Origin: Actinomycetota bacterium
GTDB lineage: Bacteria > Actinomycetota > Thermoleophilia > Gaiellales > Gaiellaceae
Direction of reading: 5' to 3'
Assembly (NCBI GenBank): GCA_003161615.1
Contig: PMOB01000019.1
Location: 52,728-116,727, forward strand
DNA: 64,000 nt
The notes under the pieces are model-generated. The model had not been told where the DNA came from. It searched no databases and saw only the letters and a list, made by a program, of their open reading frames with translations. Below, one piece after another: positions 23,986 to 36,711 of this stretch. How positions within the stretch are numbered: position 1 is the stretch's first letter; every line of letters starts with the position of its first letter. The translations under genes and the position numbers were made by a program.

Positions 23986-26378
23986 GAGGAGCAACCTCCG
24001 AGGACGTCGTTGTAGGTCGGGCCGGCCGAGTCGGCCGGCTCGAGCGGTCCCTGCGTCGCGCCCTCGCGGACGTAGGTCGCCGCGGAGGGCCGCAGGAGCG
24101 TGGCGCCGACGGCCAAGCCCGGGAAGTCCGAGATCGGCGCGTCGACTTCGGCGGTGCCGTTCGGACCGAGAGTGATCGTCCCGGTGTCCACGTGCTCCTG
24201 GAGGTACTTGTTCTCAAGCGAGAGGCGGACGAGCTCCCCGTCCCAGGCGAGCACCGTCCCCGTCTGCTCGACGGCGAGCTGCGTGAAGTACTGAGTCCCG
24301 CCGTACGTGAAGACGAGCTGGTAGTCGTTCTCGCCGCCGCCCGTCGGGATCACGGTCGAGAGGTTGCTGACGGTGATGATCGTCCGCAGCGTCTGTCCGT
24401 CGGTCGAGAGGAAGGCGCGGCCGCTGAGGATGTCGAGCTGCGGTGCCGTGCCTGGCCCGTCGACCGAAACGCCTTCGGGCGCATACGCGTCGTCGCCTGC
24501 CGGATCGGTGAAGAGGTTCCCGCAAGTTGTCGACGAGCTCGTCACGATCGGAGCCGGCGGGGTGTTGTGCGACGGCGTGAGACGACCGGTGAGGTCAAGC
24601 ATGATCTGCGAGATCTCGGGCGTTCCCCAGCCGGTCGTGTTGTCATAGCCGGGTTTCGCCGGATACGGCTGGTTGTCGCCGACCGTGACGTCGTAGAAAT
24701 CACGGCCCGGGGCCTCCTGCGCGAGCTTGTAGATCTGGTAGTTCGCGAAGCCGAGCCCCTTGCCCTGCGACGCGGCCTGGATGCGGGCCCAGACTCCGAG
24801 CCAGAGTGGTGACGAGAGGCTCGTGCCCGCTCCCTGCGAGTCGGCGCCACCGTCGTCGTTGATCAGGAGTCCGTTACCCGTCACGACGTCGCCCGAGATG
24901 TCGGCGACGTCCGGCGTCGACCGGCAGATCGGGCCTGCCGCGCCGGCGACTGGGACGTACGGGTTCCCGTTCGGGTCGAAGGTGCAGTTCGTCGAGGCGA
25001 CGCCGGTCTGGTAGCTGCCTGCCGGCTCGCTCGTCGAGTTGCCGCCGCCCCCGAACTCCCAAGCGGTCTCGGTGAAGCGGTGCTCCGGCGTTCCGCCGTC
25101 TCCGCTCAGATCGGTGCCGCCGACCGCGACAACCCACGGGCTGGCCGACGGCCAGTTGAGTCCCGGGTAGAGCTGGGTTGCGACGCCGTTCGTCGAGCCG
25201 AGCACCGGAACGCCGATGATCGGGCACGAGCCGCCGGTGTCGCCGGTGGAAGAGAAGAGCGTGCGTCCCTCGGCAGCGGCCTGCTCGAGGATCTTGTCCC
25301 CCGGCACTTCCATGCCGTCGGTGATGATCGCGTTCGCGTTGCCGACGTTCTCGCACTCGCCGAACGAGGCGCTGCCCTGGAGCGGGCCGTTCTTGTCGTT
25401 GACCCAGCCGGCGAAGGCGGCGAGCGCGTCGGTGTCGCTGTTGTGGTGCGCGAAGTAGAGGGTCTCGGACTTGACGTTTGGCGCCATGCCGGTGGAGGCC
25501 TGCGTGTCGAGCTCCCACTCGACGGTCGCACCGTCACCGCTTGTGTCGGGCGTCGACGTGTCGCCGTAGTGCTTGACCGTGATCGGCACGCCCGGCAGCC
25601 CCCACTCGGCCTCGAACGACCGGAGGTCGGGGACGACCGGGTCGGTGACGCCCCAGCCGAAGATCGCCATCGTCTGCCCGTTGCCGGCGTTCGTCGACGG
25701 CGCGTCGTAGATCGACCAGAGGTCCCGGATGCTCAAGAGACCCGTTTTCGGGGTCGTCCCGGTCGCAGTCTGCGTCGTCGTCTGCGACGTGCCTGTCGCC
25801 TGGACGCGCGGAATCGCGAGCCGGTTGAAGTTGTTCAGACCGAGGACGTCGGAGATCCCGAGCGCCGCGGGCACCGACGGCGCCTGCGTGTTCGCGTAGA
25901 AATTGCGGCCGGCCGCGGTGTAGTTGTTGAGCGGCGTACCGAACGCCAACTCGACCTGCGCCGCGCTCCCGCTCGCGAGGAAGTAGTTCGTAGAGGTCTC
26001 GATCGGCGTCACGGTCAGGCCTCTGCTTTGGGCCCAAGACGTCGCCGCCTGGAAGCTCGACGCGGGCACCCCGAACTCGGAGTTGAACGTGTCCGGATCG
26101 AGGTAGTTCCCATAGTTCGAGCTCGACGGGTCGTAGAGCTGCTTGACGTAGGCATCCTCCGCCGCCTGGTTCGGGTTGGACAGGAAGACGCCGACCGTCA
26201 CCGGCTGTGACGACGGCACCGTTCCGACCAGTGTGGCGAGCGAGAGGTTGTGCACAAACGCCTGGTCCAGCCGCACGCTGCCACTGTTGCCCTGGGCGGA
26301 CGATGCCGCACCGAAGGCGAGGAGCGACGCCGCAAGCAGCACGAGTGGCAGGCGACGAAGCGAGAAGTCTCTGAGCAT
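23982..26378 (-). CDS. Secreted sedolisin (S53) with pro-kumamolisin domain
   Basis: A 798-residue secreted endopeptidase, probably acid-active like characterised family members. Order: signal peptide (about 1-30), pro-kumamolisin activation domain (about 40-190), then the catalytic domain with Glu-x3-Asp (EWELD), oxyanion Asp (SSTGDTGG), Ser (GTSLSSP) and calcium-site GYDNTTGWGTPE. A C-terminal beta domain of about 180 residues follows. The ATG at 26378 sits after GGGGGA; an earlier in-frame start adds ten residues without a signal-like sequence. It is divergent from an ECF sigma/anti-sigma pair. Confidence 0.9.
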   Translation of the reverse strand: MLRDFSLRRLPLVLLAASLLAFGAASSAQGNSGSVRLDQAFVHNLSLATLVGTVPSSQPVTVGVFLSNPNQAAEDAYVKQLYDPSSSNYGNYLDPDTFNSEFGVPASSFQAATSWAQSRGLTVTPIETSTNYFLASGSAAQVELAFGTPLNNYTAAGRNFYANTQAPSVPAALGISDVLGLNNFNRLAIPRVQATGTSQTTTQTATGTTPKTGLLSIRDLWSIYDAPSTNAGNGQTMAIFGWGVTDPVVPDLRSFEAEWGLPGVPITVKHYGDTSTPDTSGDGATVEWELDTQASTGMAPNVKSETLYFAHHNSDTDALAAFAGWVNDKNGPLQGSASFGECENVGNANAIITDGMEVPGDKILEQAAAEGRTLFSSTGDTGGSCPIIGVPVLGSTNGVATQLYPGLNWPSASPWVVAVGGTDLSGDGGTPEHRFTETAWEFGGGGNSTSEPAGSYQTGVASTNCTFDPNGNPYVPVAGAAGPICRSTPDVADISGDVVTGNGLLINDDGGADSQGAGTSLSSPLWLGVWARIQAASQGKGLGFANYQIYKLAQEAPGRDFYDVTVGDNQPYPAKPGYDNTTGWGTPEISQIMLDLTGRLTPSHNTPPAPIVTSSSTTCGNLFTDPAGDDAYAPEGVSVDGPGTAPQLDILSGRAFLSTDGQTLRTIITVSNLSTVIPTGGGENDYQLVFTYGGTQYFTQLAVEQTGTVLAWDGELVRLSLENKYLQEHVDTGTITLGPNGTAEVDAPISDFPGLAVGATLLRPSAATYVREGATQGPLEPADSAGPTYNDVLGGCSS

Positions 26379-26580
26379 GTAATCCCCCGCGGAGAGTTGG
26401 AGTCCCACCCCTTGGTGAGGCAGGTCATCCTTCTTTCCCGAACCTGCGCAAACCTCAAACAGATTGACCAGTCAGTCAACGGCGGCCGTCGGTCCGGGGC
26501 CTGTGTCGAACGGCGTTGCGCGACCTGGAGGATCGGTTCGACTTTCGTTCGCGGACGAACCAGAATCGGCTCTGAGGCGA

Positions 26581-27180
26581 ATGAGGAACGTGACTCGCGA
26601 GCTCGCGCATCTCTCGGACGAAGCGCTCGTCGCGCTGATGGCGCGCTCCGAGCAGCAGGCGCTCGCCGAGCTGTACGACCGCTATGGACGAGCCGCGTTC
26701 GGGCTCGCGCTGCGCGTGCTCCGCGACGAGACACTCGCGGAGGACGCGGTGCAGGACGGCTTCCTGGCCGTCTGGCGCACCGCGGCGCGGTTCATCCCCG
26801 AGCAGGGAAAGGCGAGCACGTGGATCCTCACGCTGGTCCACCGGCGCGCCGTCGACCTCGTCCGGCGCGAGCAGCGACGGCGCGGGGACACGCTGGACGA
26901 GGTTGCGGATCCCGTCGGCGGCAGCGTCGACGAGGTGGCCTGGCTGCGCCTGCAGCGCGAGCGCGTGCAGGCAGCGCTGCGCCGGCTGCCGGACCGCGAG
27001 CGCGAGGCGATCGAGCTCGCCTACTACGGCGGTTTCACGCAGTCGGAGCTTGCGGAGCGGCTCGGCCAGCCGATCGGCACGATCAAGAGCAGGATGTTCA
27101 CGGGGCTCGCGCGTCTGCGAGAGCTCCTGGAGGAAACCGCACCGGAGATGACATGGACGCCAGAGACCTCCACGACCTGA
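26581..27180 (+). CDS. ECF sigma factor (SigK-like group)
   Basis: A 199-residue sigma-70 factor. Region 2 spans the RYGRAAFGLALRVLRDETLA / DAVQDGFLAVWRTA stretch, and region 4 spans LPDREREAIELAYYGG and QSELAERLGQPIGTIKSRMF. The ATG at 26581 follows GAGG; an upstream TTG would add a Gly/Ser-rich lead lacking in the family. The anti-sigma gene overlaps its 3' end by 28 bp, the usual arrangement. An inverted repeat GGTTCG/CGAACC (26535-26561) lies just upstream of the start. Confidence 0.92.
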   Translation: MRNVTRELAHLSDEALVALMARSEQQALAELYDRYGRAAFGLALRVLRDETLAEDAVQDGFLAVWRTAARFIPEQGKASTWILTLVHRRAVDLVRREQRRRGDTLDEVADPVGGSVDEVAWLRLQRERVQAALRRLPDREREAIELAYYGGFTQSELAERLGQPIGTIKSRMFTGLARLRELLEETAPEMTWTPETSTT

Positions 27181-27773
27181 CCCCCGCTTACGCGCTCGAC
27201 GCCCTCGATGCCGAGGAGGCGGCGGCGTACGAGGCGCATCTCGGCCAGTGCGAAGCTTGCCGGGAGGAGCTGACGCGCCTCAACGAAGCCGCGACCGCGC
27301 TCGCCTGGGCGACGGCGGCTCCTGAGCCTCCGGCGCGTCTGCGCAGCTCGATCCTCGACGCGGCGGCGGAGGAGCGCTGGAACGTCGTTCCGCTGCTGCG
27401 CCGCTCGTGGGCCTTCCGGGCGACGGCGGCCGCGGCTGCCGCGGCGGCGGCCGTAGCGGTGGGAGTCGGCGTCTGGGCTGCCGGGGCGCATTCGACCCGC
27501 GTCGTCAGCGCGGTGATCTCCGTCGGGCCGAGCGGGCAGGCGACGCTGCGGGTCTCCGGCCTCGCGGTAGCGCCGAGCGGCAAGACGTACGAGGCGTGGA
27601 TCATCCCCGCGGGCGGCCAAGCCCGTCCGGCCGGACTGTTCGCCGGCGGCCGCACCGCCGTCGTGCATCTCCGCGGGACGGTTCCTCAGGGAGCTGTCGT
27701 CGCCGCGACGCTCGAGCGCGCGGGCGGCGCCAAGGCGCCGACGCACGCTCCCGTCTTCAGCGCGCCGGTCTGA
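27153..27773 (+). CDS. RskA-type zinc anti-sigma factor
   Basis: A 206-residue single-pass membrane anti-sigma factor. The cytosolic N-terminus carries the zinc anti-sigma motif H-x3-C-x2-C (HLGQCEAC), followed by a linker, one membrane helix (about 90-115, Ala/Val-rich) and an extracytosolic RskA-like domain with TYEAWIIPAGG. It should hold the ECF sigma factor encoded just upstream until a signal triggers release or proteolysis. The ATG at 27153 follows GGAG and lies inside the sigma gene. It ends 3 bp before the convergent PQQ gene. Confidence 0.92.
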   Translation: MDARDLHDLTPAYALDALDAEEAAAYEAHLGQCEACREELTRLNEAATALAWATAAPEPPARLRSSILDAAAEERWNVVPLLRRSWAFRATAAAAAAAAAVAVGVGVWAAGAHSTRVVSAVISVGPSGQATLRVSGLAVAPSGKTYEAWIIPAGGQARPAGLFAGGRTAVVHLRGTVPQGAVVAATLERAGGAKAPTHAPVFSAPV

Positions 27774-27776
27774 TCC

Positions 27777-28964
27777 TCAGCGCGGCACGAGCGCGTAGAG
27801 CTTGCCGAGCCCGACGAAGTAGAGCCGGCCGTAGCCGGCGACCGCGGGCGAGTACTCGCCGTCCGGCCACTCCTGCACGACGCGGCCGCGGCCGGCGGTC
27901 AGCGCGTACGTCCGGTGGGAGAAGGTCGAGAAGTAGACGACGCCGTCGATCGCCGACGCTGCGCCGGAGATAGAGGCTCCCGCCGGGTAGCGCCAGCGAA
28001 CCGTGCCGCTGTCCGCCTGGAGCGCATAGAAGCTGCCGTCGTAGGAGCCGACGAGGACGACACCGCGCCAGACGGCGGGCGATGCGTAGACGTAGCCGCC
28101 CGTGCCGACGCTCCAGAGGGTTTCGCCGGTGCGGGCGGAGAAGGCATAGACCCTGTCGTCGAGCGAGCCGACGAAGACGCGTCCGGCGCTGACCGTGGCG
28201 GTCGAGTAGATGTTCCCGTGGCCGCCGTTGCGCCAGAGGATCCTGCCGGTGCGGGCGTCGAGCGCGAACATCGTCCCGGCGTAGTTGCCGATGAAGATCC
28301 GCCCGCCGGCGAGCGTCGGTGACGCCTTGATCGCAGCGCCGGTGTCGACGCGCCAGAGGAGCCGCCCCGTGCGGTCGGCGAAGGCGTAGACGTAACCGTT
28401 CTGGTCGGCGGCATAGACGACACCGTCCACGGCGAGCGGGGACGACTCGCTCGGGCCAATCCGCTGCCGCCAGCGAATCCGGCCCGTCGAGGGCGAGAAG
28501 GCGACGAGCTCGCCGTTCCGGAACGTCGAGTGACAGCTCGGGTGGGCGATGAAGCTCGCGAAGAGGATGCCGTCGGCGAGCGCCGGCGACGCCCAGCCGC
28601 AGCGGTGCGCGTAGTAGCGCCAGCGCACCGCGCCCGTCGCCGGGTCGAGCGCGTAGAGGCGCCCGTCGAACGCCTCCTCGAACACGCTGCCGTAGCCGAC
28701 GACGGGCGGGAACTCGAGGAGGGCCCGTCCGTGGAATGTCCAGAGGCGCCGGAACGGTGGCCGTATTCCCTGCGCGGAGACGGCCCGGGACCGCGCGTTG
28801 TCTGCTCCGTAGGTCGGCCAGGGCAGCGTCGCGCTCGCCGGTGGCGGCGGCGGCACGGTGGTCGGGGGCAGCGGAACGGAGGTCGTCGTCGGCGCGTGGG
28901 CGCCGCCGCACGACGCGAGCAGACCTACCGCGGCGACGAGGACGACGGCCCCAGTCCACCTCAC
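27777..28964 (-). CDS. PQQ-like beta-propeller lipoprotein
   Basis: A 395-residue exported lipoprotein with lipobox LLASC near residue 19, then a Thr/Pro linker and about seven repeats of the WRxxTGAxIxxSPxLxxGxI[FY]xG type that form a PQQ-dehydrogenase/BamB-like propeller. It lacks obvious PQQ ligands and is more likely a binding scaffold. The GTG at 28964 overlaps the stop of the upstream gene (GTGA), so the two are coupled and probably act together outside the membrane. Confidence 0.85.
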   Translation of the reverse strand: MRWTGAVVLVAAVGLLASCGGAHAPTTTSVPLPPTTVPPPPPASATLPWPTYGADNARSRAVSAQGIRPPFRRLWTFHGRALLEFPPVVGYGSVFEEAFDGRLYALDPATGAVRWRYYAHRCGWASPALADGILFASFIAHPSCHSTFRNGELVAFSPSTGRIRWRQRIGPSESSPLAVDGVVYAADQNGYVYAFADRTGRLLWRVDTGAAIKASPTLAGGRIFIGNYAGTMFALDARTGRILWRNGGHGNIYSTATVSAGRVFVGSLDDRVYAFSARTGETLWSVGTGGYVYASPAVWRGVVLVGSYDGSFYALQADSGTVRWRYPAGASISGAASAIDGVVYFSTFSHRTYALTAGRGRVVQEWPDGEYSPAVAGYGRLYFVGLGKLYALVPR

Positions 28965-30292
28965 CGGCTCTCACCGCTCAACCGGCTCCAGAGGTTGTCG
29001 ACCAGCCGCGAGACCGACGGCCAGTGCGCGCTCGCGCCGAAGTTGAAGGCTCCGGCGTCGAAGACCGTCGAGCGCCCGACGCGGTAGATCGTCATCTTCG
29101 CCGGCTTGTGCGGCCCGAACTCGTGCGGGATGACCGCGAGGACGTGCGTGCCGCGCGGCGAGGAGCCGTTCGGCTCGTCGATCTCGATCCCGTAGTTCCC
29201 GAACTTGACGCCATCGTGCAAGCCCGTGCCCGCAAAGAGCCAGGGCGCGGCCGCCGTGTCGACGACGTGGTACGGGTGGTTCGCGTACTTGTCCTCGTCC
29301 CAGCCGACGTACTGCTCGCCGACGAGCGCGGCCTCGGGCCGGCCGATGTCGCGCCACCGGGTGCGGCCGGTCATCGTGTTCCCGTCGACCTGCACGCGGT
29401 AGAAGAAGTTGTTCGCAGAGAGGAAGGCAAGGTTGCCGCCGGCGTTGCGGTACTGCGTGATCAGGCCGTAGACGTGCGCCGTCGTGTACTCCTCGTGGCC
29501 GGCGAAGACGATCAGGCTGTAGCGGCTCAGCTGCGCGGCGCTCTTGATGTTCTCGAGGTCGTCGTCGGAGAAGAAGTCCGCCCTGAAACCGCTCGGCCAG
29601 TACCAGCGGAGGAAGCCGAGGTCGAGCCTCCAGAACTGTTCCGGCAGCCCGGCGGGAACCTGCGCGCCGCGGATGTCGTTCGCGGTGAAGGGGTGCGTCA
29701 GGTCGACGGTGTGGACGTTCGAGTTGAGGTACCAGCTGTCGCCCCCGAGGTTGTCGTAGGCGTGCCACGTGTTCGTCGGCTCGATCACGAGGACGGGCGC
29801 GGTGCCGAGCGTCGTCGGGCGGAGGATGAACGGCGCATAGTCGGTGTGCCCGTGCCAGCGGAGCCTGGCGACGTAGTCGCCGCTCGGCCAGGTCGAGCCG
29901 AGCCGGAGGCGCGCGAGCCACGGGCCGTTCGCCGGCCGCCGCAGGTGCCGCGGCGCCGACACCGGCTTCCCGAACGTCGTCTTGTCCCAGCCACCCCGCC
30001 CGTGGCGCACCGTGGCGCCGGCGAGGAAGAACTGGAGCGTGACACGGTTCGTCGTCCCGCCGTCGATCTGGAGGAGGGCGACCTGGCCGGGCTTGTAGCT
30101 TCGGGCCTCGAAGCCGGCGAGGAATTGCGGCGACGGCGGCGTTCCCGAGCCGAGGACGGCCGTGTAGACGATGACGAGCGCGGCGACGATCGCGACGCCG
30201 GAGGCGACCGTGACGAGCGCTGCGCGGTCGCGCCGAGAGCGCGGCGAGCGGGGTTTCCTGTGCTGGCGGAGCCTGTCCGGAGCGATGGCCAT
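28961..30292 (-). CDS. Membrane-anchored N,N-dimethylformamidase-like protein
   Basis: A 443-residue protein with a basic N-terminus, one membrane segment (about residues 25-48) and a large extracytosolic domain resembling the C-terminal part of the N,N-dimethylformamidase large subunit. Supporting blocks are VIEPTNTWHAYDNLGG, FFSDDDLEN, SLIVFAGHEEY and GGNLAFLSANNFFYR, a class I glutamine amidotransferase-like fold. Catalysis is not established. The ATG at 30292 is chosen over an upstream TTG. It is divergent from the SARP gene and coupled to the PQQ lipoprotein. Confidence 0.75.
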   Translation of the reverse strand: MAIAPDRLRQHRKPRSPRSRRDRAALVTVASGVAIVAALVIVYTAVLGSGTPPSPQFLAGFEARSYKPGQVALLQIDGGTTNRVTLQFFLAGATVRHGRGGWDKTTFGKPVSAPRHLRRPANGPWLARLRLGSTWPSGDYVARLRWHGHTDYAPFILRPTTLGTAPVLVIEPTNTWHAYDNLGGDSWYLNSNVHTVDLTHPFTANDIRGAQVPAGLPEQFWRLDLGFLRWYWPSGFRADFFSDDDLENIKSAAQLSRYSLIVFAGHEEYTTAHVYGLITQYRNAGGNLAFLSANNFFYRVQVDGNTMTGRTRWRDIGRPEAALVGEQYVGWDEDKYANHPYHVVDTAAAPWLFAGTGLHDGVKFGNYGIEIDEPNGSSPRGTHVLAVIPHEFGPHKPAKMTIYRVGRSTVFDAGAFNFGASAHWPSVSRLVDNLWSRLSGESR

Positions 30293-30326
30293 GGGCGGCA
30301 CGCTCGGAGGCCGCGCCAATCACCCA

Positions 30327-30343
30327 CTAACGACCCGCTAACG
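30327..30343 (+). promoter_or_regulatory. Candidate SARP-binding direct repeat
   Basis: CTAACG occurs at 30327-30332 and again at 30338-30343, exactly 11 bp apart. SARP regulators typically bind direct repeats with this one-turn period. The site lies 44 bp upstream of the SARP gene and between it and the divergent dimethylformamidase-like gene, so self-regulation is plausible. Confidence 0.45.
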
Positions 30344-30386
30344 GCGGCCGGGACCGCCGCGTGAAAGGGTGCTAGAACCTCCTGCG

Positions 30387-31991
30387 GTGGTCGAATTCGC
30401 CATCCTCGGTCCGCTCGAGGCTCGCGATGCTGGGAAGCCGATTGGACTCGGCGGCCCGAAGCAGCGCGGGCTCCTGACGCTGCTTCTCCTCGAGGCCGGC
30501 CGCGTCGTCTCGATCGACCGCCTCGTCGAGGCGCTCTGGGAGGGAAACCCACCGGCGACCGCGGTCGCGTCGCTCCAGAACTTCGTCGCGCAGCTGCGGA
30601 AGGCGCTCGGCCCGGACACGATCGAGACGCGCTCGCCGGGCTATCTCGTCCGTCTCGAGCCGGAGCAGCTCGACCTCGCGTGGGTACGGCGCCTCGTCGA
30701 CGAAGCACGCGCGAGCGAGCCGCAGCGGCGCGCAGAGCTGCTGGACGAGGCGCTCGAGCATTGGCACGGCGAGCCGCTCGGCGAGTTCCGCTACGAGGCG
30801 TTCGCGCGCGACGAGATCGCGCGGCTGGACGAGTTCCGGCTCACGCTGGTCGAGGAGCGGGCGGAGGCGAAGCTGGCGATCGGCGAGCAGACAGAGCTCA
30901 TCTCGGAGCTCGAGAGGCTCGTCAATCAGAACCCGCTGCGCGAGCGGCTACGGGCACAGCTGATGCTCGCCCTCTACCGCTCCGGCCGCCAGGCGCAGGC
31001 GCTCGAGGTGTACCGGGAAGGGCGCGAGAAACTCGTCGGCGAGCTCGGGCTCGAGCCGAGCCCTCTCCTGCGCGGAGTGCACGCCTCGATCCTCCGCCAG
31101 GAGACGTTCGCGGTCGGACGCGGCGCGATCCCCGAGGTCGAGCACTTCGACGAAGTCGCGGCCGCCCTCCTCGCCGGAAAGGTCACGGTCGTCATCGGCT
31201 CGGAGTCGGAGCCGCTCGCCTCGGAGCTCGCGCGCCGCTTCGGGCTCGAGACGGAGGTGGTGCCGGAGCTGGCTCGCATCTCCCAGGCCGTCGCGGTGCT
31301 CAACGGCTCCGGCCCGCTCTACGACACGCTGCACAGCCTCGTCTCCAACGACGGGGAGCCGACCGCAGTCCATCGCTTCCTCGCTGGCCTGCCGACCCTC
31401 CTGCGCGAGCGGGAGACGGCCCAGCCGCTCCTCGTCACCACGGGCTACGAGCTCGCCCTCGAGCGCGCGCTCGAGGAGCGTGACGAGGCGTACGACACCG
31501 TCTGCTACCTCGCGGCCGGCGAGATGCGCGGCAGCTTCTGCCACATCGCCCCGGGCGGCGCCGCGACCGTGATCGAGCGCCCGAACGCCTACACGCGCGA
31601 GCTCGACCTCGATGCGCGCACCGTCCTCCTCCACCTGCAGGGGCGCGTCGACCGCTCGACGGGGCGCGCCTGGGAGAGCTTCGCGGTCACCGAGGACGAC
31701 TTCATCCACTACGGCGACATCGCGCGGCGGCTGCCCGTCGCGCTCGGCGCTCGCATGCGCCGCACCCATCTCCTCCTCCTCGGCTACACGCTCTCGACCT
31801 GGACGCTGCGTGTCGTGCTCGAGCGCTTCTGGGGCAGCGAGCCGCTGCCGTACCGCTCCTGGTCGGTGCACGCCGGGCCGCAGCCGCTCGAGCGGGAGTT
31901 CTGGCGGCGGCGCGACGTCGAGGTCGTGGACATGGCGCCCGCCGCGTACGTCGCCGAGCTCGAGCAGGCGCTGGAGAAGGCCACAGGATGA
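30387..31991 (+). CDS. SARP-family regulator fused to a SIR2-like domain
   Basis: A 534-residue fusion. Residues ~1-95 are an OmpR-like winged helix (VEFAILGPLEARD, PKQRGLLTLLL) and ~95-245 a BTAD helical domain (ALYRSGRQAQALEVYREGRE), as in AfsR/DnrI regulators. Residues ~260-530 match SIR2-like domains, including TVVIGSESEPLASELARRF, the C-terminal LLLLGYTLSTWTLRVVLERF and YVAELEQAL. The usual catalytic Asn and His are replaced (TTGYE, LHLQG), so NADase activity is doubtful. The start is GTG 30387 or 30369; the former matches SARP proteins. The stop overlaps the STAND gene (ATGA). Confidence 0.85.
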   Translation: MVEFAILGPLEARDAGKPIGLGGPKQRGLLTLLLLEAGRVVSIDRLVEALWEGNPPATAVASLQNFVAQLRKALGPDTIETRSPGYLVRLEPEQLDLAWVRRLVDEARASEPQRRAELLDEALEHWHGEPLGEFRYEAFARDEIARLDEFRLTLVEERAEAKLAIGEQTELISELERLVNQNPLRERLRAQLMLALYRSGRQAQALEVYREGREKLVGELGLEPSPLLRGVHASILRQETFAVGRGAIPEVEHFDEVAAALLAGKVTVVIGSESEPLASELARRFGLETEVVPELARISQAVAVLNGSGPLYDTLHSLVSNDGEPTAVHRFLAGLPTLLRERETAQPLLVTTGYELALERALEERDEAYDTVCYLAAGEMRGSFCHIAPGGAATVIERPNAYTRELDLDARTVLLHLQGRVDRSTGRAWESFAVTEDDFIHYGDIARRLPVALGARMRRTHLLLLGYTLSTWTLRVVLERFWGSEPLPYRSWSVHAGPQPLEREFWRRRDVEVVDMAPAAYVAELEQALEKATG

Positions 31992-34900
31992 ACGCCGGCC
32001 CCGACAGCCCGTACAAGGGCCTTGCGGCGTTCGAGGACTCCGAGCTCGACGCGCTCCTCTTCTTCGGTCGCGAGCGCGAGGTCGAGATGGTCGTGGCGAA
32101 CGTCCTCGCGAGCCGGCTGACCGTCCTCTACGGGCCGAGCGGCGTCGGCAAGAGCTCGCTCGTCCGCGCCGGCGTCGCGCGCCGGCTGCGCCAGGCGAGC
32201 GGAGCGCCGGTCGTCGTGCACGACTCCTGGGCGGAAGATCCGGCCGCGGCGCTGATGGCCTCGGTGGCGGCCGAGTGCGGCGACCTCGGAGCGACCGCCG
32301 GGCTCGTGGACACCATTGCCGCGGCCGCGCAACGAAACGGCGAGCTGCACCTCCTGCTCGACCAGTTCGAGGAGTACATGCTCTACCACGGCCTCGAGGG
32401 GCCGCTGAGCACGGCGCTACCCGAGCTGCTGCGGCGGCCCGGCTTGCGCGTCAATGTCCTCGTCGCGATCCGGGACGACGCGCTCGCCGAGCTCGACGAG
32501 TTCGCCGGCCGGATCCCGGAGTTGTTCGGCAACCTCCTCCGTCTCGACCGACTCGACCGCGCAGCCGGGCGCGACGCGATCGTCGGGCCGCTCGCCCGCT
32601 ACGGCGAGCTGCACGGAGAGGAGTTCAGCGCGGAGGATGGGCTCGTCGAAGCGGTGCTCGACGAGGTGGCCGAGGGGCGGCTCGACTTCGGCGGCACCGC
32701 CGTGCAGCGCTCCACCCGGATCGAGGCGCCGTACCTCCAGCTCGTGCTCGAGCGCCTCTGGGAGCACGAGCGCCTCGCGGGCTCGAACGTCCTGCGCCTG
32801 AACACCTTCCGCGAGATCGGCGGCGCGCGAGCCGTCGTCCGCGAGCACGTCCAGGGCGCGCTCGACCGGCTCCCCGTGTCGGAGCAGGATTCGGCGGAGC
32901 GTGTGATGCGCCAGCTCGTCACGCCGTCCGGCCGCAAGCTCTCGCACGAGGCCCGCGACCTCGCCGAGTACGCGGACGTCGAGGATGCGCAGCTGCGCCG
33001 GCTGCTCGAGCGCCTGGGACGGGAGCGGATCGTCCGCGGCGTCAACGGCACGCCGGGGGCGCCCACGCGGTACGAGATCTTCCACGACGTCCTCGGCCCG
33101 CCGATCCTCGCGTGGCAGCACGACCACCAGCTGCGCCGCGAGCGCGAGCGCGCCCGCAGCCAGCGCCGCCGCCTGCGCACGATCATCGCCGCCACGCTCG
33201 CCGCGCTCGCCGTCGTCGCCGCCCTCGCCGTCTACGCGCTCGTGCAGCGGAGCAACGCGAACACGCAGGCCACCCACGCGCGCGGGCGCGAGCTCGCGGC
33301 ACGGGCCCTGGCCGAGATCGCGACGAATCCGCAGATCAGCGTCGAGCTCGCCCTGCACGCCGCCAGGCTCGCCCCCGGCGAGCAGACGGCCTCCGTCCTC
33401 CGCACGAGCCTGCTTGCGATGCGGGAGACGAAGATCCTCCACCCGGGCGGCGCCGTGCTGACCGCGGCGTTCGCGCCGAAGAGCGCGCTGCTGCTCGTTG
33501 CGAGCACGGACGGAAAGGTCGGGCTCTTCAGCCGCGAAGGACGCGCGGAGCCCGCGTTGCCGCGCCAGGCCGGCCTGACCACGGCGGTCTGGAGCCCCGA
33601 CGGTCGCCTGTTCGCGACGGGCACGAAAACCGGTGTCGTCTCGGTCTGGCGGCCGGGCCGCGACGTTCCCGTGCGAGTCGTCCGGACCGGTTCGCCGATC
33701 GTCGCCCTCGCGTTCGATCAGAGCACGCTCCTCGTCGCGAGCGGCACCCACGTCCGCCTCGTCCAGCGCGGAAGCGGCCGGATCAAGACGATCGACCTCC
33801 AAGCCGGAGTGGTGGCCGCCGCGCTGGACTTGACCGGCCAGGTCTTCGCCGTCGCGTTCCGCCACGGAACCGGGACGAAATCCGAGCTCGTCGATGCCCG
33901 CACCGGCAAGAAGATCCGCGTCCTCCCCGAAGACGAGATCCGTTCGTTCGCCTTCAGCCCCGACGGCCATCACCTCGCCAGCGGCAGCTACGACAAGACG
34001 GCGCGCATCTGGGACGCACACACCGGCAGGCAGCTCCACGTCCTCCACCATCACGGCTACGTCCTCGCCGAGGCCTTCTCGCCGGACGGCCGGTTCCTTG
34101 CCACCGCGAGCTCCGACGGAGCGGGCTATCTCTGGAGCGTCGCGAACGGAGCGCGCGAGCTTCTCCTCGTCGGCCCGGCCGGCGGTGCCGACGCGATCGC
34201 CTTCAGCCCGGACGGGAGCGAGATCGCGCTCGGCTCGACCGACCAGCTGGCTCGCCTCTACTTCGCGCAGGACGGACGGTTGCTCGCTCCTCTTGCCGGA
34301 CACGGCGGCGCCGTCACGAGCGTCGACTTCGACCCGAGCGGCCGGACGCTCGCCACGGGCTCAGCCGACGGAACGGTCCGGCTCTGGCAGGCGTTCCCGG
34401 CGGGGACGTTGAAGGTGATCGATCACCGCGGCCCCACGACTGCGGTGACGTCGCTCTGGGCCGGGAACGATCCGCTCAGCGTCGCCGGAAACCAGGCGCG
34501 GATCCTCACGACGTCGGGCGGCGTGGTCGGGCGGCTCACGATGAAGAGCCCGATCGTCAAAGCGGCGACGGCGGGAAGGACGATCGCGCTCGTCGACCAG
34601 TCCGGAGACCTCCTCGTCGACCGGCGCGGCCACGTCGGAACGCTGTCCGGCCTCAAGGTCACCGCCGTCGCTCCGGAGACGAACGGCCTCGTCGTCCTCG
34701 GCCGGGCGGACGGTGGCGTCGACTACTTCGGAGGTAGAGCCCTCGCCGACGTCGGCGCGCCGGTCGTCGGCCTGTCGGTAGGCGGCCACCACATCCTCGT
34801 CAACACCGGCAAGGAGCTCCGCGTCCTGAGCGACGACGGCAAGCTCGTCAGCACGATCCACACCGCGGCGCAGCACGCAACGCTCTCCCCCGGCGGCCTC

Positions 34901-35389
34901 GGCGTCGCGACCTCGAAGGGAGACGTCGCGCAGCTCTGGGACGCGACGACGGGCAAGCTCCTCCACACGTTGACCGGCCACACAAAGCCCATCACCGACG
35001 TCGAGTACTCGCCCGACGGTCTCGAGGTCGTCGCTGTCAGCATCGACCACACCGGCTTGGTCTGGTCCGCCCGCAGCGGCCTTCCCATTCACCACCCGCT
35101 GATCGGCCACTTCTTCCCGGTCTACTCCGGCAGCTACAGCCCCGACGGCCACTGGATCGTGACCGCGAGCCAGTTCACGGCCGGCCTCTGGAACGCGGCG
35201 ACGTCGCAGCTCATGTTCTATCTCGGCCGCACCGCCGCGCCACTGACCGGCGCAAGCTTCAGCCCGCGGGGCGACTGGATCCTCACCGGTAGCCATGACG
35301 GCACCGCGCGCCTCTACCACTGCCAGATCTGCGCGCCGCTGCCGAAGCTCGAGAACCTCGCCGAGAACCGGCTCCGCTCACTGCACTAG
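31988..35389 (+). CDS. Membrane-anchored nSTAND NTPase with WD40 propeller
   Basis: A 1133-residue signalling ATPase. SPYKGLAAFEDSELDALLFFG starts the nSTAND module; Walker A GPSGVGKSS is at 49-57 and Walker B HLLLDQFEE at 121-129. A helical region with YEIFHDVLGPPILAW follows, then an Arg-rich stretch and one membrane helix (~397-419). Residues ~450-1133 hold about 14 WD40-like repeats (FSPDGHHLASGSYDKTARIW and similar), enough for two seven-blade propellers. The cytosolic STAND and external propeller topology is inferred. It is translationally coupled to the SARP-SIR2 protein, which it probably controls or senses with. Confidence 0.9.
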   Translation: MNAGPDSPYKGLAAFEDSELDALLFFGREREVEMVVANVLASRLTVLYGPSGVGKSSLVRAGVARRLRQASGAPVVVHDSWAEDPAAALMASVAAECGDLGATAGLVDTIAAAAQRNGELHLLLDQFEEYMLYHGLEGPLSTALPELLRRPGLRVNVLVAIRDDALAELDEFAGRIPELFGNLLRLDRLDRAAGRDAIVGPLARYGELHGEEFSAEDGLVEAVLDEVAEGRLDFGGTAVQRSTRIEAPYLQLVLERLWEHERLAGSNVLRLNTFREIGGARAVVREHVQGALDRLPVSEQDSAERVMRQLVTPSGRKLSHEARDLAEYADVEDAQLRRLLERLGRERIVRGVNGTPGAPTRYEIFHDVLGPPILAWQHDHQLRRERERARSQRRRLRTIIAATLAALAVVAALAVYALVQRSNANTQATHARGRELAARALAEIATNPQISVELALHAARLAPGEQTASVLRTSLLAMRETKILHPGGAVLTAAFAPKSALLLVASTDGKVGLFSREGRAEPALPRQAGLTTAVWSPDGRLFATGTKTGVVSVWRPGRDVPVRVVRTGSPIVALAFDQSTLLVASGTHVRLVQRGSGRIKTIDLQAGVVAAALDLTGQVFAVAFRHGTGTKSELVDARTGKKIRVLPEDEIRSFAFSPDGHHLASGSYDKTARIWDAHTGRQLHVLHHHGYVLAEAFSPDGRFLATASSDGAGYLWSVANGARELLLVGPAGGADAIAFSPDGSEIALGSTDQLARLYFAQDGRLLAPLAGHGGAVTSVDFDPSGRTLATGSADGTVRLWQAFPAGTLKVIDHRGPTTAVTSLWAGNDPLSVAGNQARILTTSGGVVGRLTMKSPIVKAATAGRTIALVDQSGDLLVDRRGHVGTLSGLKVTAVAPETNGLVVLGRADGGVDYFGGRALADVGAPVVGLSVGGHHILVNTGKELRVLSDDGKLVSTIHTAAQHATLSPGGLGVATSKGDVAQLWDATTGKLLHTLTGHTKPITDVEYSPDGLEVVAVSIDHTGLVWSARSGLPIHHPLIGHFFPVYSGSYSPDGHWIVTASQFTAGLWNAATSQLMFYLGRTAAPLTGASFSPRGDWILTGSHDGTARLYHCQICAPLPKLENLAENRLRSLH

Positions 35390-36271
35390 ATGCTCGCCGA
35401 GAAAGGCGAGCGAGGCCGGCTCCTGCGAGACGAAGAACGGGCCGGTGTGGCAGCCACCCGAGAGGTCGACGGTCGCGCTTCGCGGCAGCACGCGCGTGAG
35501 CGCGACGACGCCGGGATGGAACGGATCGTCGTTACCCGACGCGACCCGGACGGGCTTCCCGGCGAGGGCGCCGACGTGCGCGATGACGTCGGCGGCTGCG
35601 AACGCCTCTGCCGAGGCGAACGCGCCGGCGTTGGCGGCGTGCGCCTCGGCGTACGTCGTCCAGATCGCGGGACTGATCGCGGCGACGGCTCCGAACAGCT
35701 GCGGGTACTTCTCGGCGAAGAGCAGAGCCCCGTAGCCGCCCATCGAGATCCCCATCGCGCCGATTCGCTGCCGGCCGAGCCCTTGCCGCCGGCAGAGCGG
35801 GATCAGCTCGTCGATGACCATCCCCAGCGGGTCGTCGCCCGGATGCGGGTTCCAGTAGCCCCCTCCGCCGTCGACGGTGACCATCGCCAGCGGGGGCAGG
35901 TGCCGGAGACCGACGGCTTGGGCGGGAGTCATGCTCGACAGCGCGTTGCGGTGGTCGCCGCCGAAGCCATGCAGCATCACGATCAACGGCAGCCGGTCGC
36001 CGGGCTCGTGGCCGGGCGGGTAGGCAATCGTGTATCCGACCCGCCGGTTCCGCGCGTGCGAAAAGAAGCTGCCCGAGCGCGACGGGCCGAGCACCGGCGC
36101 GAAATGGAGCGGCGGTGACGAGACCGAGCACGCGCCGGTGATCACGTCGAGGAAGTGCTTGCCGGGCAGGACTCCGCGCGAGACGAGCTGCTCAACCCCG
36201 ATCCCGGCGGCGACGACCGAGCCCGTGCCGGCGAGCCCGAGCTTGAGGAACCGGCGCCGCGTCATCACCAT
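35378..36271 (-). CDS. Tat-exported esterase of the alpha/beta hydrolase fold
   Basis: A 297-residue secreted esterase resembling the esterase D/ mycolyltransferase group. The twin-arginine signal is TRRRFLKLGLAG. The nucleophile elbow is GISMGG, the acid is likely in SGNDDPFHPG and the His in GGCHTGPF. An N-terminal HGFGGDHRNA oxyanion region is present. The ATG at 36271 or the one at 36265 both precede the Tat motif. Its 3' end overlaps the convergent STAND gene by 12 bp, and it follows the DUF1801-like gene by 32 bp. Confidence 0.88.
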   Translation of the reverse strand: MVMTRRRFLKLGLAGTGSVVAAGIGVEQLVSRGVLPGKHFLDVITGACSVSSPPLHFAPVLGPSRSGSFFSHARNRRVGYTIAYPPGHEPGDRLPLIVMLHGFGGDHRNALSSMTPAQAVGLRHLPPLAMVTVDGGGGYWNPHPGDDPLGMVIDELIPLCRRQGLGRQRIGAMGISMGGYGALLFAEKYPQLFGAVAAISPAIWTTYAEAHAANAGAFASAEAFAAADVIAHVGALAGKPVRVASGNDDPFHPGVVALTRVLPRSATVDLSGGCHTGPFFVSQEPASLAFLGEHLVQ

Positions 36272-36303
36272 GAGTTCGCCGGCACCACGTCGATCCTTGC
36301 GAC

Positions 36304-36711
36304 CTACCTCACCGCTTGCTTGACGAGCTTCGTGATCTTGGCCTCGTCGGCCTTGCTCAGCTTCGCCGTCAGCGCGTAGGCGACCGGCCACATCGTGCCG
36401 TCGTCGAGGTTCGAGTTGTCCTGGAAGCCCAGCAGCGCGTAGCGCTCCTTGAACTTCGCGGCGTCACGGAAGTAGATGACCGCCTTGCCGCTGGGGCCCG
36501 CATAAGCCGGCATCCCGTACCACGTCTTCGGCGTCAGCTCGGGAGCCGCCTTCTTGACGATCGCGTGGATCCGCTCGCCGAGCTTGCGGTCATGGGGTGT
36601 CATCTTGGCGAACGCGGCCTGGATCGCCTCCTCGCCTTCCGCCGCCAGCTTGAGCTCTTCTTTCGCCCGCGCGCGCATCGCGGCCTTCTCCTCTGCGCTG
36701 AAACCGCTCAC
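36304..36711 (-). CDS. DUF1801 / YdhG-like small protein
   Basis: A 135-residue cytosolic protein. An N-terminal helical lead is followed by the DUF1801 core with RIHAIVKKAAPELTPKTWYGMPAYAGPSG, AVIYFRDAAKFKERYALLGF and a C-terminal helical pair. The family has a frataxin-like fold and its role is mostly unknown. The GTG at 36711 follows AAAGGAG. It is likely first in an operon with the Tat esterase. Confidence 0.8.
   Translation of the reverse strand: MSGFSAEEKAAMRARAKEELKLAAEGEEAIQAAFAKMTPHDRKLGERIHAIVKKAAPELTPKTWYGMPAYAGPSGKAVIYFRDAAKFKERYALLGFQDNSNLDDGTMWPVAYALTAKLSKADEAKITKLVKQAVR

Follow-up and report, generated by a model that had tools for sequence, protein, structure and literature searches.

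The locus analysed here lies in a 64,000-nucleotide stretch of the genome of a soil bacterium of the Actinomycetota (the window) and raises the question of what is achieved by placing a SARP-type transcription factor, a SIR2-like domain and a STAND ATPase side by side, given that STAND and SIR2 domains are common in both conflict and signalling systems. The SARP-SIR2/STAND combination proposed from the sequence is confirmed as a real, conserved and unusual regulator pair. Our reading, to which we would give a probability of roughly 0.7, is that the two proteins form a signalling switch at the membrane, which descends from a defence-type SIR2/STAND pair and controls genes for exported proteins. 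The basis of this reading is sequence and structure comparison, including the domains, the strict pairing of the two genes, the loss of catalytic motifs under purifying selection, the geometry and conservation of an operator, and the positions of its sites in the genome.

The regulator gene (30387..31991, plus strand, GTG start) encodes a protein of 534 amino acids, for which 24 of 129 genomes in the order have an orthologue. It comprises a winged helix-turn-helix (residues 23-86), a BTAD domain (96-236), a linker (approximately 240-250) and a SIR2 fold (251-534), and Pfam detects Trans_reg_C (PF00486, 5.6e-9), BTAD (PF03704, 2e-41) and SIR2_2 (PF13289, 9.6e-11), the last with 42.4 bits against a curated cut-off of 24.5. 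The AlphaFold model, based on an alignment with 22 orthologues, has a mean pLDDT of 86.8. Its N-terminal half resembles AfsR (8k60; Foldseek E 2.3e-17, 41% identity), is covered by the NCBIfam AfsR model (1.9e-57) and shows the SARP arrangement of an OmpR-type winged helix followed by BTAD. The C-terminal half adopts a SIR2-like fold, the closest structures being the SIR2 domains of KomC, ThsA, DSR2, SIR2-HerA and Avs5 (Foldseek E 1e-8 to 1e-4), and at the sequence level a profile of this part also retrieves KomC, DSR2 and ThsA, with E-values from 1.7e-9 to 3.5e-5. The SIR2-like nature of this half is thus borne out by Pfam, profile and Foldseek.

The second gene (31988..35389, plus strand, ATG start) shares an ATGA with the regulator gene and encodes a protein of 1133 amino acids with nSTAND1 (PF20703, 1.4e-48) and WD40 (3.1e-60) matches. 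In its AlphaFold model, built with an orthologue alignment (mean pLDDT 88), an NTPase is followed by a helical linker with a membrane helix and by propellers. The Walker A motif GPSGVGKS (32132..32155, plus strand) is intact and falls in invariant alignment columns; together with the nSTAND1 domain and the sensor repeats, it places the protein among nSTAND1 ATPases. The WD40 region (33425..35320, plus strand) has approximately 14-15 blades in two propellers according to Pfam, matches to tandem propellers and Apaf-1, and the model, in which 62 strands across residues 480-1111 correspond to about 15 blades. The best full-length fold match is Apaf-1, and the order of an NTPase and two WD40 propellers is shared with Apaf-1 and other NOD-propeller STAND proteins, whereas the window protein is bacterial, carries a membrane helix between NTPase and propellers, and is partnered with a transcription factor instead of a caspase. 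The domain calls of the original prediction for both genes (SARP/BTAD with a SIR2-like part, and STAND with WD40 repeats and one membrane helix) therefore hold in Pfam, AlphaFold and Foldseek.

The single membrane helix (residues 399-417; 33182..33238, plus strand) was assessed by hydropathy in 19 homologues, and its N-terminal side is richer in basic residues. In all 18 helix-bearing homologues, 5-10 basic residues are present in the preceding 20 positions and 2-5 in the following 20; the STAND protein of locus L147 is devoid of the helix (L, G and C numbers are our labels for loci, genomes and contigs). Judged from this charge bias, the NTPase would be cytoplasmic and the propellers would lie outside, a topology that fits the earlier suggestion that the propeller may sense the envelope or a ligand.

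A SIR2-domain match was found in 24 of the 129 genomes of the order. The same 24 genomes were recovered from a 399-genome sample of the class, and a 396-genome sample of the phylum added G425 as one strong case from beyond the order. In named records, the close relatives come from Thermoleophilia bacteria. The STAND gene lies directly 3′ of the SIR2 gene with a 4-base NTGA overlap in all 23 loci with downstream sequence, in agreement with the expectation that homologues of this ATGA-sharing pair would co-occur. Because the SIR2 match is present in 24/129 genomes and the same overlap recurs in 23/23 loci, the pairing is not a matter of chance. Two outcomes had been named beforehand as speaking against the pair, a C-terminal half that is not SIR2-like and homologues that never co-occur with the STAND gene, and neither was found. 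The window genome has a single nSTAND1 protein above the cut-off and a single full-length BTAD protein.

With regard to the surroundings, the genes from 35378 onward were rejected as part of the system since they are not conserved in the context loci; the first of them, downstream of the pair, encodes an esterase or alpha-beta hydrolase (35378-36391, minus strand). A mobile or phage-borne defence gene was likewise rejected, as no relatives of the SIR2 part were found in phage or plasmid records and the neighbourhood is kept on one side. Among the SARP genes examined in order-mates without the pair, no single-chain BTAD-nSTAND1 fusion was found. SARP fusions of other kinds are abundant in order-mates (L126, L129, L127, L131, L128, L138 and L140), including BTAD with guanylate cyclase and AAA domains and BTAD with Vgb_lyase/DUF6923-like propellers (one with SBP_bac_5), and these organisms also have BTAD proteins of 530-600 amino acids whose C-terminal half is without a Pfam domain.

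The motifs of active SIR2 NADases, GAGx(S/N), TTNxD and HG, appear in the window protein as GSESE, TTGYE and QG. In the alignment, the NAD-binding loop is degenerate (IGSESE, 31194..31211; LGAGAN in stand-alone relatives), the TTNYD motif has become TTGYE with loss of the catalytic Asn and Asp (31437..31451), and the HG motif reads HLQG with Gln in place of the catalytic His (31632..31643), all on the plus strand. In ThsA, the dyad consists of the Asn and His, and the corresponding residues of DSR2 are important as well (PMC11263360). Defence by Avs5 was abolished when the Asn or Asp was replaced by Ala, and likewise by either Ala or Gln in the HG/NG position (PMC12931631); the window residues at these positions are Gly, Glu and Gln. 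Among 21 SARP-fused proteins, the catalytic Asn is kept in only three (L016, L022 and L024) and the His in 12, and the NAD-contacting glycine loop is altered in 20; all three motifs are kept in L022, whereas eight proteins keep none, namely that of the window and those of L003-L008 and L020. Despite these changes, the SIR2 domain is 85-88% identical to its four closest orthologues, exceeding the SARP domain, and among the five genomes of the window clade its dN/dS of 0.09-0.20 is below that of the SARP domain in every pair; against the more distant L007 it is 0.37, slightly above the 0.27 of the SARP domain.

Because the NAD loop and the catalytic Asn, Asp and His have been lost in the window clade, the SIR2 domain there is probably a pseudo-enzyme kept as an adaptor. 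An active NADase effector was rejected for this clade on account of the motif loss, and gating by NAD or ADP-ribose, as first proposed, found no support there. The loss of catalysis is not universal, however, given the intact-looking SIR2 site of the L022 SARP fusion. One could suppose that NAD, ADP-ribose or a related nucleotide is still bound by the domain, though no longer cut, and that this ligand gates DNA binding; the intact fold of the model, the strong purifying selection, the His kept in 12/21 fused proteins and the complete motifs of L022 would all agree with this. We nevertheless consider it unlikely, as the glycine loop is altered in 20 of the 21 and the window clade has additionally lost Asn, Asp and His.

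The region between the regulator gene and the divergently transcribed gene contains a predicted SARP operator (30316..30344, unstranded) of three direct repeats with an 11-bp pitch, CCAATCA (30316), CTAACGA (30327) and CTAACGG (30338), which towards the divergent gene reads CCGTTAG-n4-TCGTTAG-n4-TGATTGG. Repeats of this pitch score 12-14 of 14 in all 16 orthologous intergenic regions, while shuffles average approximately 9. A predicted -10 element of the divergent promoter (GAGCGT, 30300..30305, minus strand) lies 10 bp past the last repeat and 7 bp before the ATG, suggesting a leaderless transcript. Its position is conserved in the 16 divergent promoters, where the CGTTAG units are in general followed by 10 bp, a hexamer, 6-7 bp and the ATG; the hexamer is GACGGT in most orthologues, a poor match to TANNNT. 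According to the published rule, SARPs recognize direct repeats placed at 11 or 22 bp from each other, of which the 3′ one is located 8 bp from the -10 element (PMC10936776), and the operator layout matches this rule when the heptamer is counted from GTTRG. The target site expected of a SARP, 11-bp direct repeats near the -10, is accordingly present at fixed spacing in 16/16 regions, and the CGTTAG unit resembles the AfsR box, CGTT(T/C)ATCGNN (PMC10972967). On the other strand, a leaderless promoter of the regulator gene may use TAGAAC with an extended TGC (30373..30378, plus strand); this was identified by eye, as was a TGnTAnAAC-like sequence directly before the regulator start codon in most orthologues. 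A consensus promoter scan returned no sigma-70-like sites, and the -10 elements are put forward on the basis of their conservation. Judged from this conserved SARP-type operator with its divergent target gene, transcription is most likely the output, as the original prediction had anticipated.

The candidate target is an exported DMFA2_C-domain protein of 443 amino acids (28961..30292, minus strand; Pfam 7.7e-51), which occupies the divergent position in 12 of the 16 orthologous loci. In the other four (L065, L069, L072 and L073, the last assigned from its sequence) the divergent gene encodes an M23-peptidase-like exported protein, so that an exported product of one type or the other is found in 16/16 loci. 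At L071 (5120-7576) the divergent ORF has 819 codons and apparently comprises two DMFA2_C-type units. The plus-strand ORF at 28736-30364 was rejected as the upstream gene, as it is without a Pfam match and the minus-strand gene is the conserved one. The second gene of the divergent operon (27777..28964, minus strand) encodes a PQQ/BamB-type propeller with a lipoprotein-like N-terminus (Pfam PQQ_2, 8.2e-44) and is kept beside the DMFA2_C gene in most DMFA2_C loci. A further match of this propeller is to the C-terminal propeller in the model for AfsK (4.9e-30), the AfsR kinase of Streptomyces. Further along, an ORF at 26250-27773 (plus strand) has anti-sigma-K factor domains (zf-HC2 and RskA_C) from residue 305.

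The exact double box CYAACGG-n4-CTAACGG was found in 11 of the 24 SIR2-domain genomes versus 2 of the 105 others (Fisher p 6e-8), and in 10 of these 11 it lies at the promoter of the pair itself. In the window genome, the site of the pair has one mismatch and exact boxes are located elsewhere. Three further sites (C12:7680, C18:15003 and C25:24192) were found there versus none for a reversed control pattern, counts that are partly circular because the box was derived from pair loci and then scanned for, and for the stricter pattern, written after the sites had been seen, circular altogether. Each of the three consists of two units, 10-11 bp, TANNNT, 6-7 bp and a start codon, and precedes an ORF with an export-type N-terminus. 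A looser pattern adds a fourth extra site (C8:142463) before another exported propeller-like ORF, directly after an M23 gene whose product is 45% identical to the divergent protein of L065; for the four extra sites together, the reversed control again gave none. An M23-like gene of the window genome (L150, G000:C8, approximately 2076-2948) is homologous to the gene in the divergent position elsewhere, and the pattern used detected no CGTTAG box upstream of it. The independent part of the evidence is the recurrence of two of the extra sites at orthologous genes (L123/L115/L112 and L113/L114), namely at the same place at the C18 orthologues in G108 and G100 and at the C12 orthologue in G103. For the other families of the clade, boxes were found at the pair only.

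Since target sites occur in G100 and G103, in which no SARP-SIR2 protein was detected (the genomes being 81% and 78% complete), the box may also be used by a paralogous SARP. It could even be argued that the repeats belong to another SARP-type regulator of the order and that the pair is merely among its targets, the more so as order-mates have SARP fusions with approximately 50% identical DNA-binding halves. This seems improbable to us, considering that the window genome has one full-length BTAD protein yet five sites and that exact boxes track the SIR2-domain genomes (11/24 versus 2/105), almost always at the promoter of the pair.

The signalling switch that we favour may be sketched as follows; its inferred parts are the physical contact of SIR2 with STAND, the binding of the site by SARP, activation as the effect, sensing on the outside and the signal itself. 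The WD40 propellers would sense a ligand or the envelope state outside the membrane, upon which the cytoplasmic nSTAND1 NTPase would switch its nucleotide state and oligomerise. The oligomer would then engage the non-catalytic SIR2 domain of the regulator, a docking or oligomerising adaptor, and the attached SARP domains would be loaded head to tail on the tandem 11-bp CGTTAG repeats before the leaderless promoter. This would switch on the divergent operon, which encodes the DMFA2_C protein and the PQQ propeller, along with a small number of further genes whose products are exported, probably with autoregulation as well. The regulator could, on the other hand, repress instead of activating.

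As for the origin of the pair, a stand-alone SIR2 gene with all motifs intact adjoins and precedes the STAND gene at L025 (G079) and L147 (G425), and these two form a clade of their own (support 100/99) in a midpoint-rooted tree. The presence of stand-alone intact SIR2 beside STAND in two relatives suggests an ancestral defence-like SIR2/STAND pair, followed by SARP fusion, after which the active site decayed on repeated occasions; the direction of change is inferred, the root being without an outgroup and the argument resting on an active SIR2 as the general state of the superfamily. More tentatively, and at somewhat below even odds, a SIR2/STAND immune pair might have been domesticated into a trans-membrane transcription switch in which the NADase repeatedly decayed to a pseudo-enzyme adaptor. 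By the same tentative account, STAND oligomerisation, formerly the trigger of NAD depletion, would now load a transcription factor on tandem repeats, and the controlled genes would be those of the exported propeller and envelope proteins. The contrast originally drawn between conflict and signalling separates the two too sharply, as the ancestry looks defence-like and the present role regulatory. That the pair still serves defence, with the STAND protein sensing invasion and SARP-SIR2 depleting NAD or inducing protective exported genes on infection, is distinctly unlikely: the folds nearest to it are those of NADases from phage defence and of Avs5, a SIR2-STAND protein, its stand-alone relatives with intact motifs make the same gene pair and its distribution is patchy (24/129), but the active site is lost, the sensor is membrane-anchored, the operator and the divergent exported-protein operon are conserved, and the window SIR2 part has neither a PADLOC match nor relatives in phage or plasmid records.

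The pair shares features with several known systems. AfsR and other large SARP-STAND regulators of Streptomyces share the SARP fold, 11-bp CGTT-type repeats near the -10 and control by a STAND NTPase, whereas in AfsR the NTPase and a TPR sensor are part of the same chain, and in the window the STAND is a separate membrane WD40 protein and a degenerate SIR2 domain follows the SARP part. In EmbR of M. tuberculosis, too, the SARP fold is extended by a C-terminal module; this is a phosphothreonine-binding FHA domain, and EmbR has neither SIR2 nor a STAND partner. Avs5 likewise links a SIR2 fold to a STAND NTPase, yet does so within one protein with NADase output, whereas the window has two genes and a lost active site. 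The motifs of the active SIR2 enzymes (Avs5, KomC, ThsA and DSR2) are retained, as GAGAN, TTNYD and HG, in the stand-alone relatives; the window pair differs from these systems in the lost motifs, the added SARP, the operator with a divergent target, and the nSTAND1-WD40 membrane protein on a gene of its own. PADLOC did not assign the window proteins to a known anti-phage defence system; the matches were weak and confined to the ATPase and the DNA-binding half. In the open-licence PMC papers searched, we found no description of the SARP-SIR2 fusion, and SIR2, nSTAND1, BTAD and SARP are all absent from the main text of a 2020 eLife survey devoted to NTP-dependent conflict systems (PMC7159879).

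A practical consequence is that SIR2 proteins encoded beside STAND genes should not be designated NADase effectors until their active site has been checked. The predicted operator and the small candidate regulon make the signalling switch testable. If the reading is true, the family would offer a traceable path from an immune NADase/STAND module to a gene regulator, with stand-alone intact SIR2, SARP-fused intact SIR2 and SARP-fused SIR2 with dead motifs as intermediates, and it would indicate that a pseudo-enzyme adaptor can put a transcription factor carried by one protein under the control of a STAND sensor on another.
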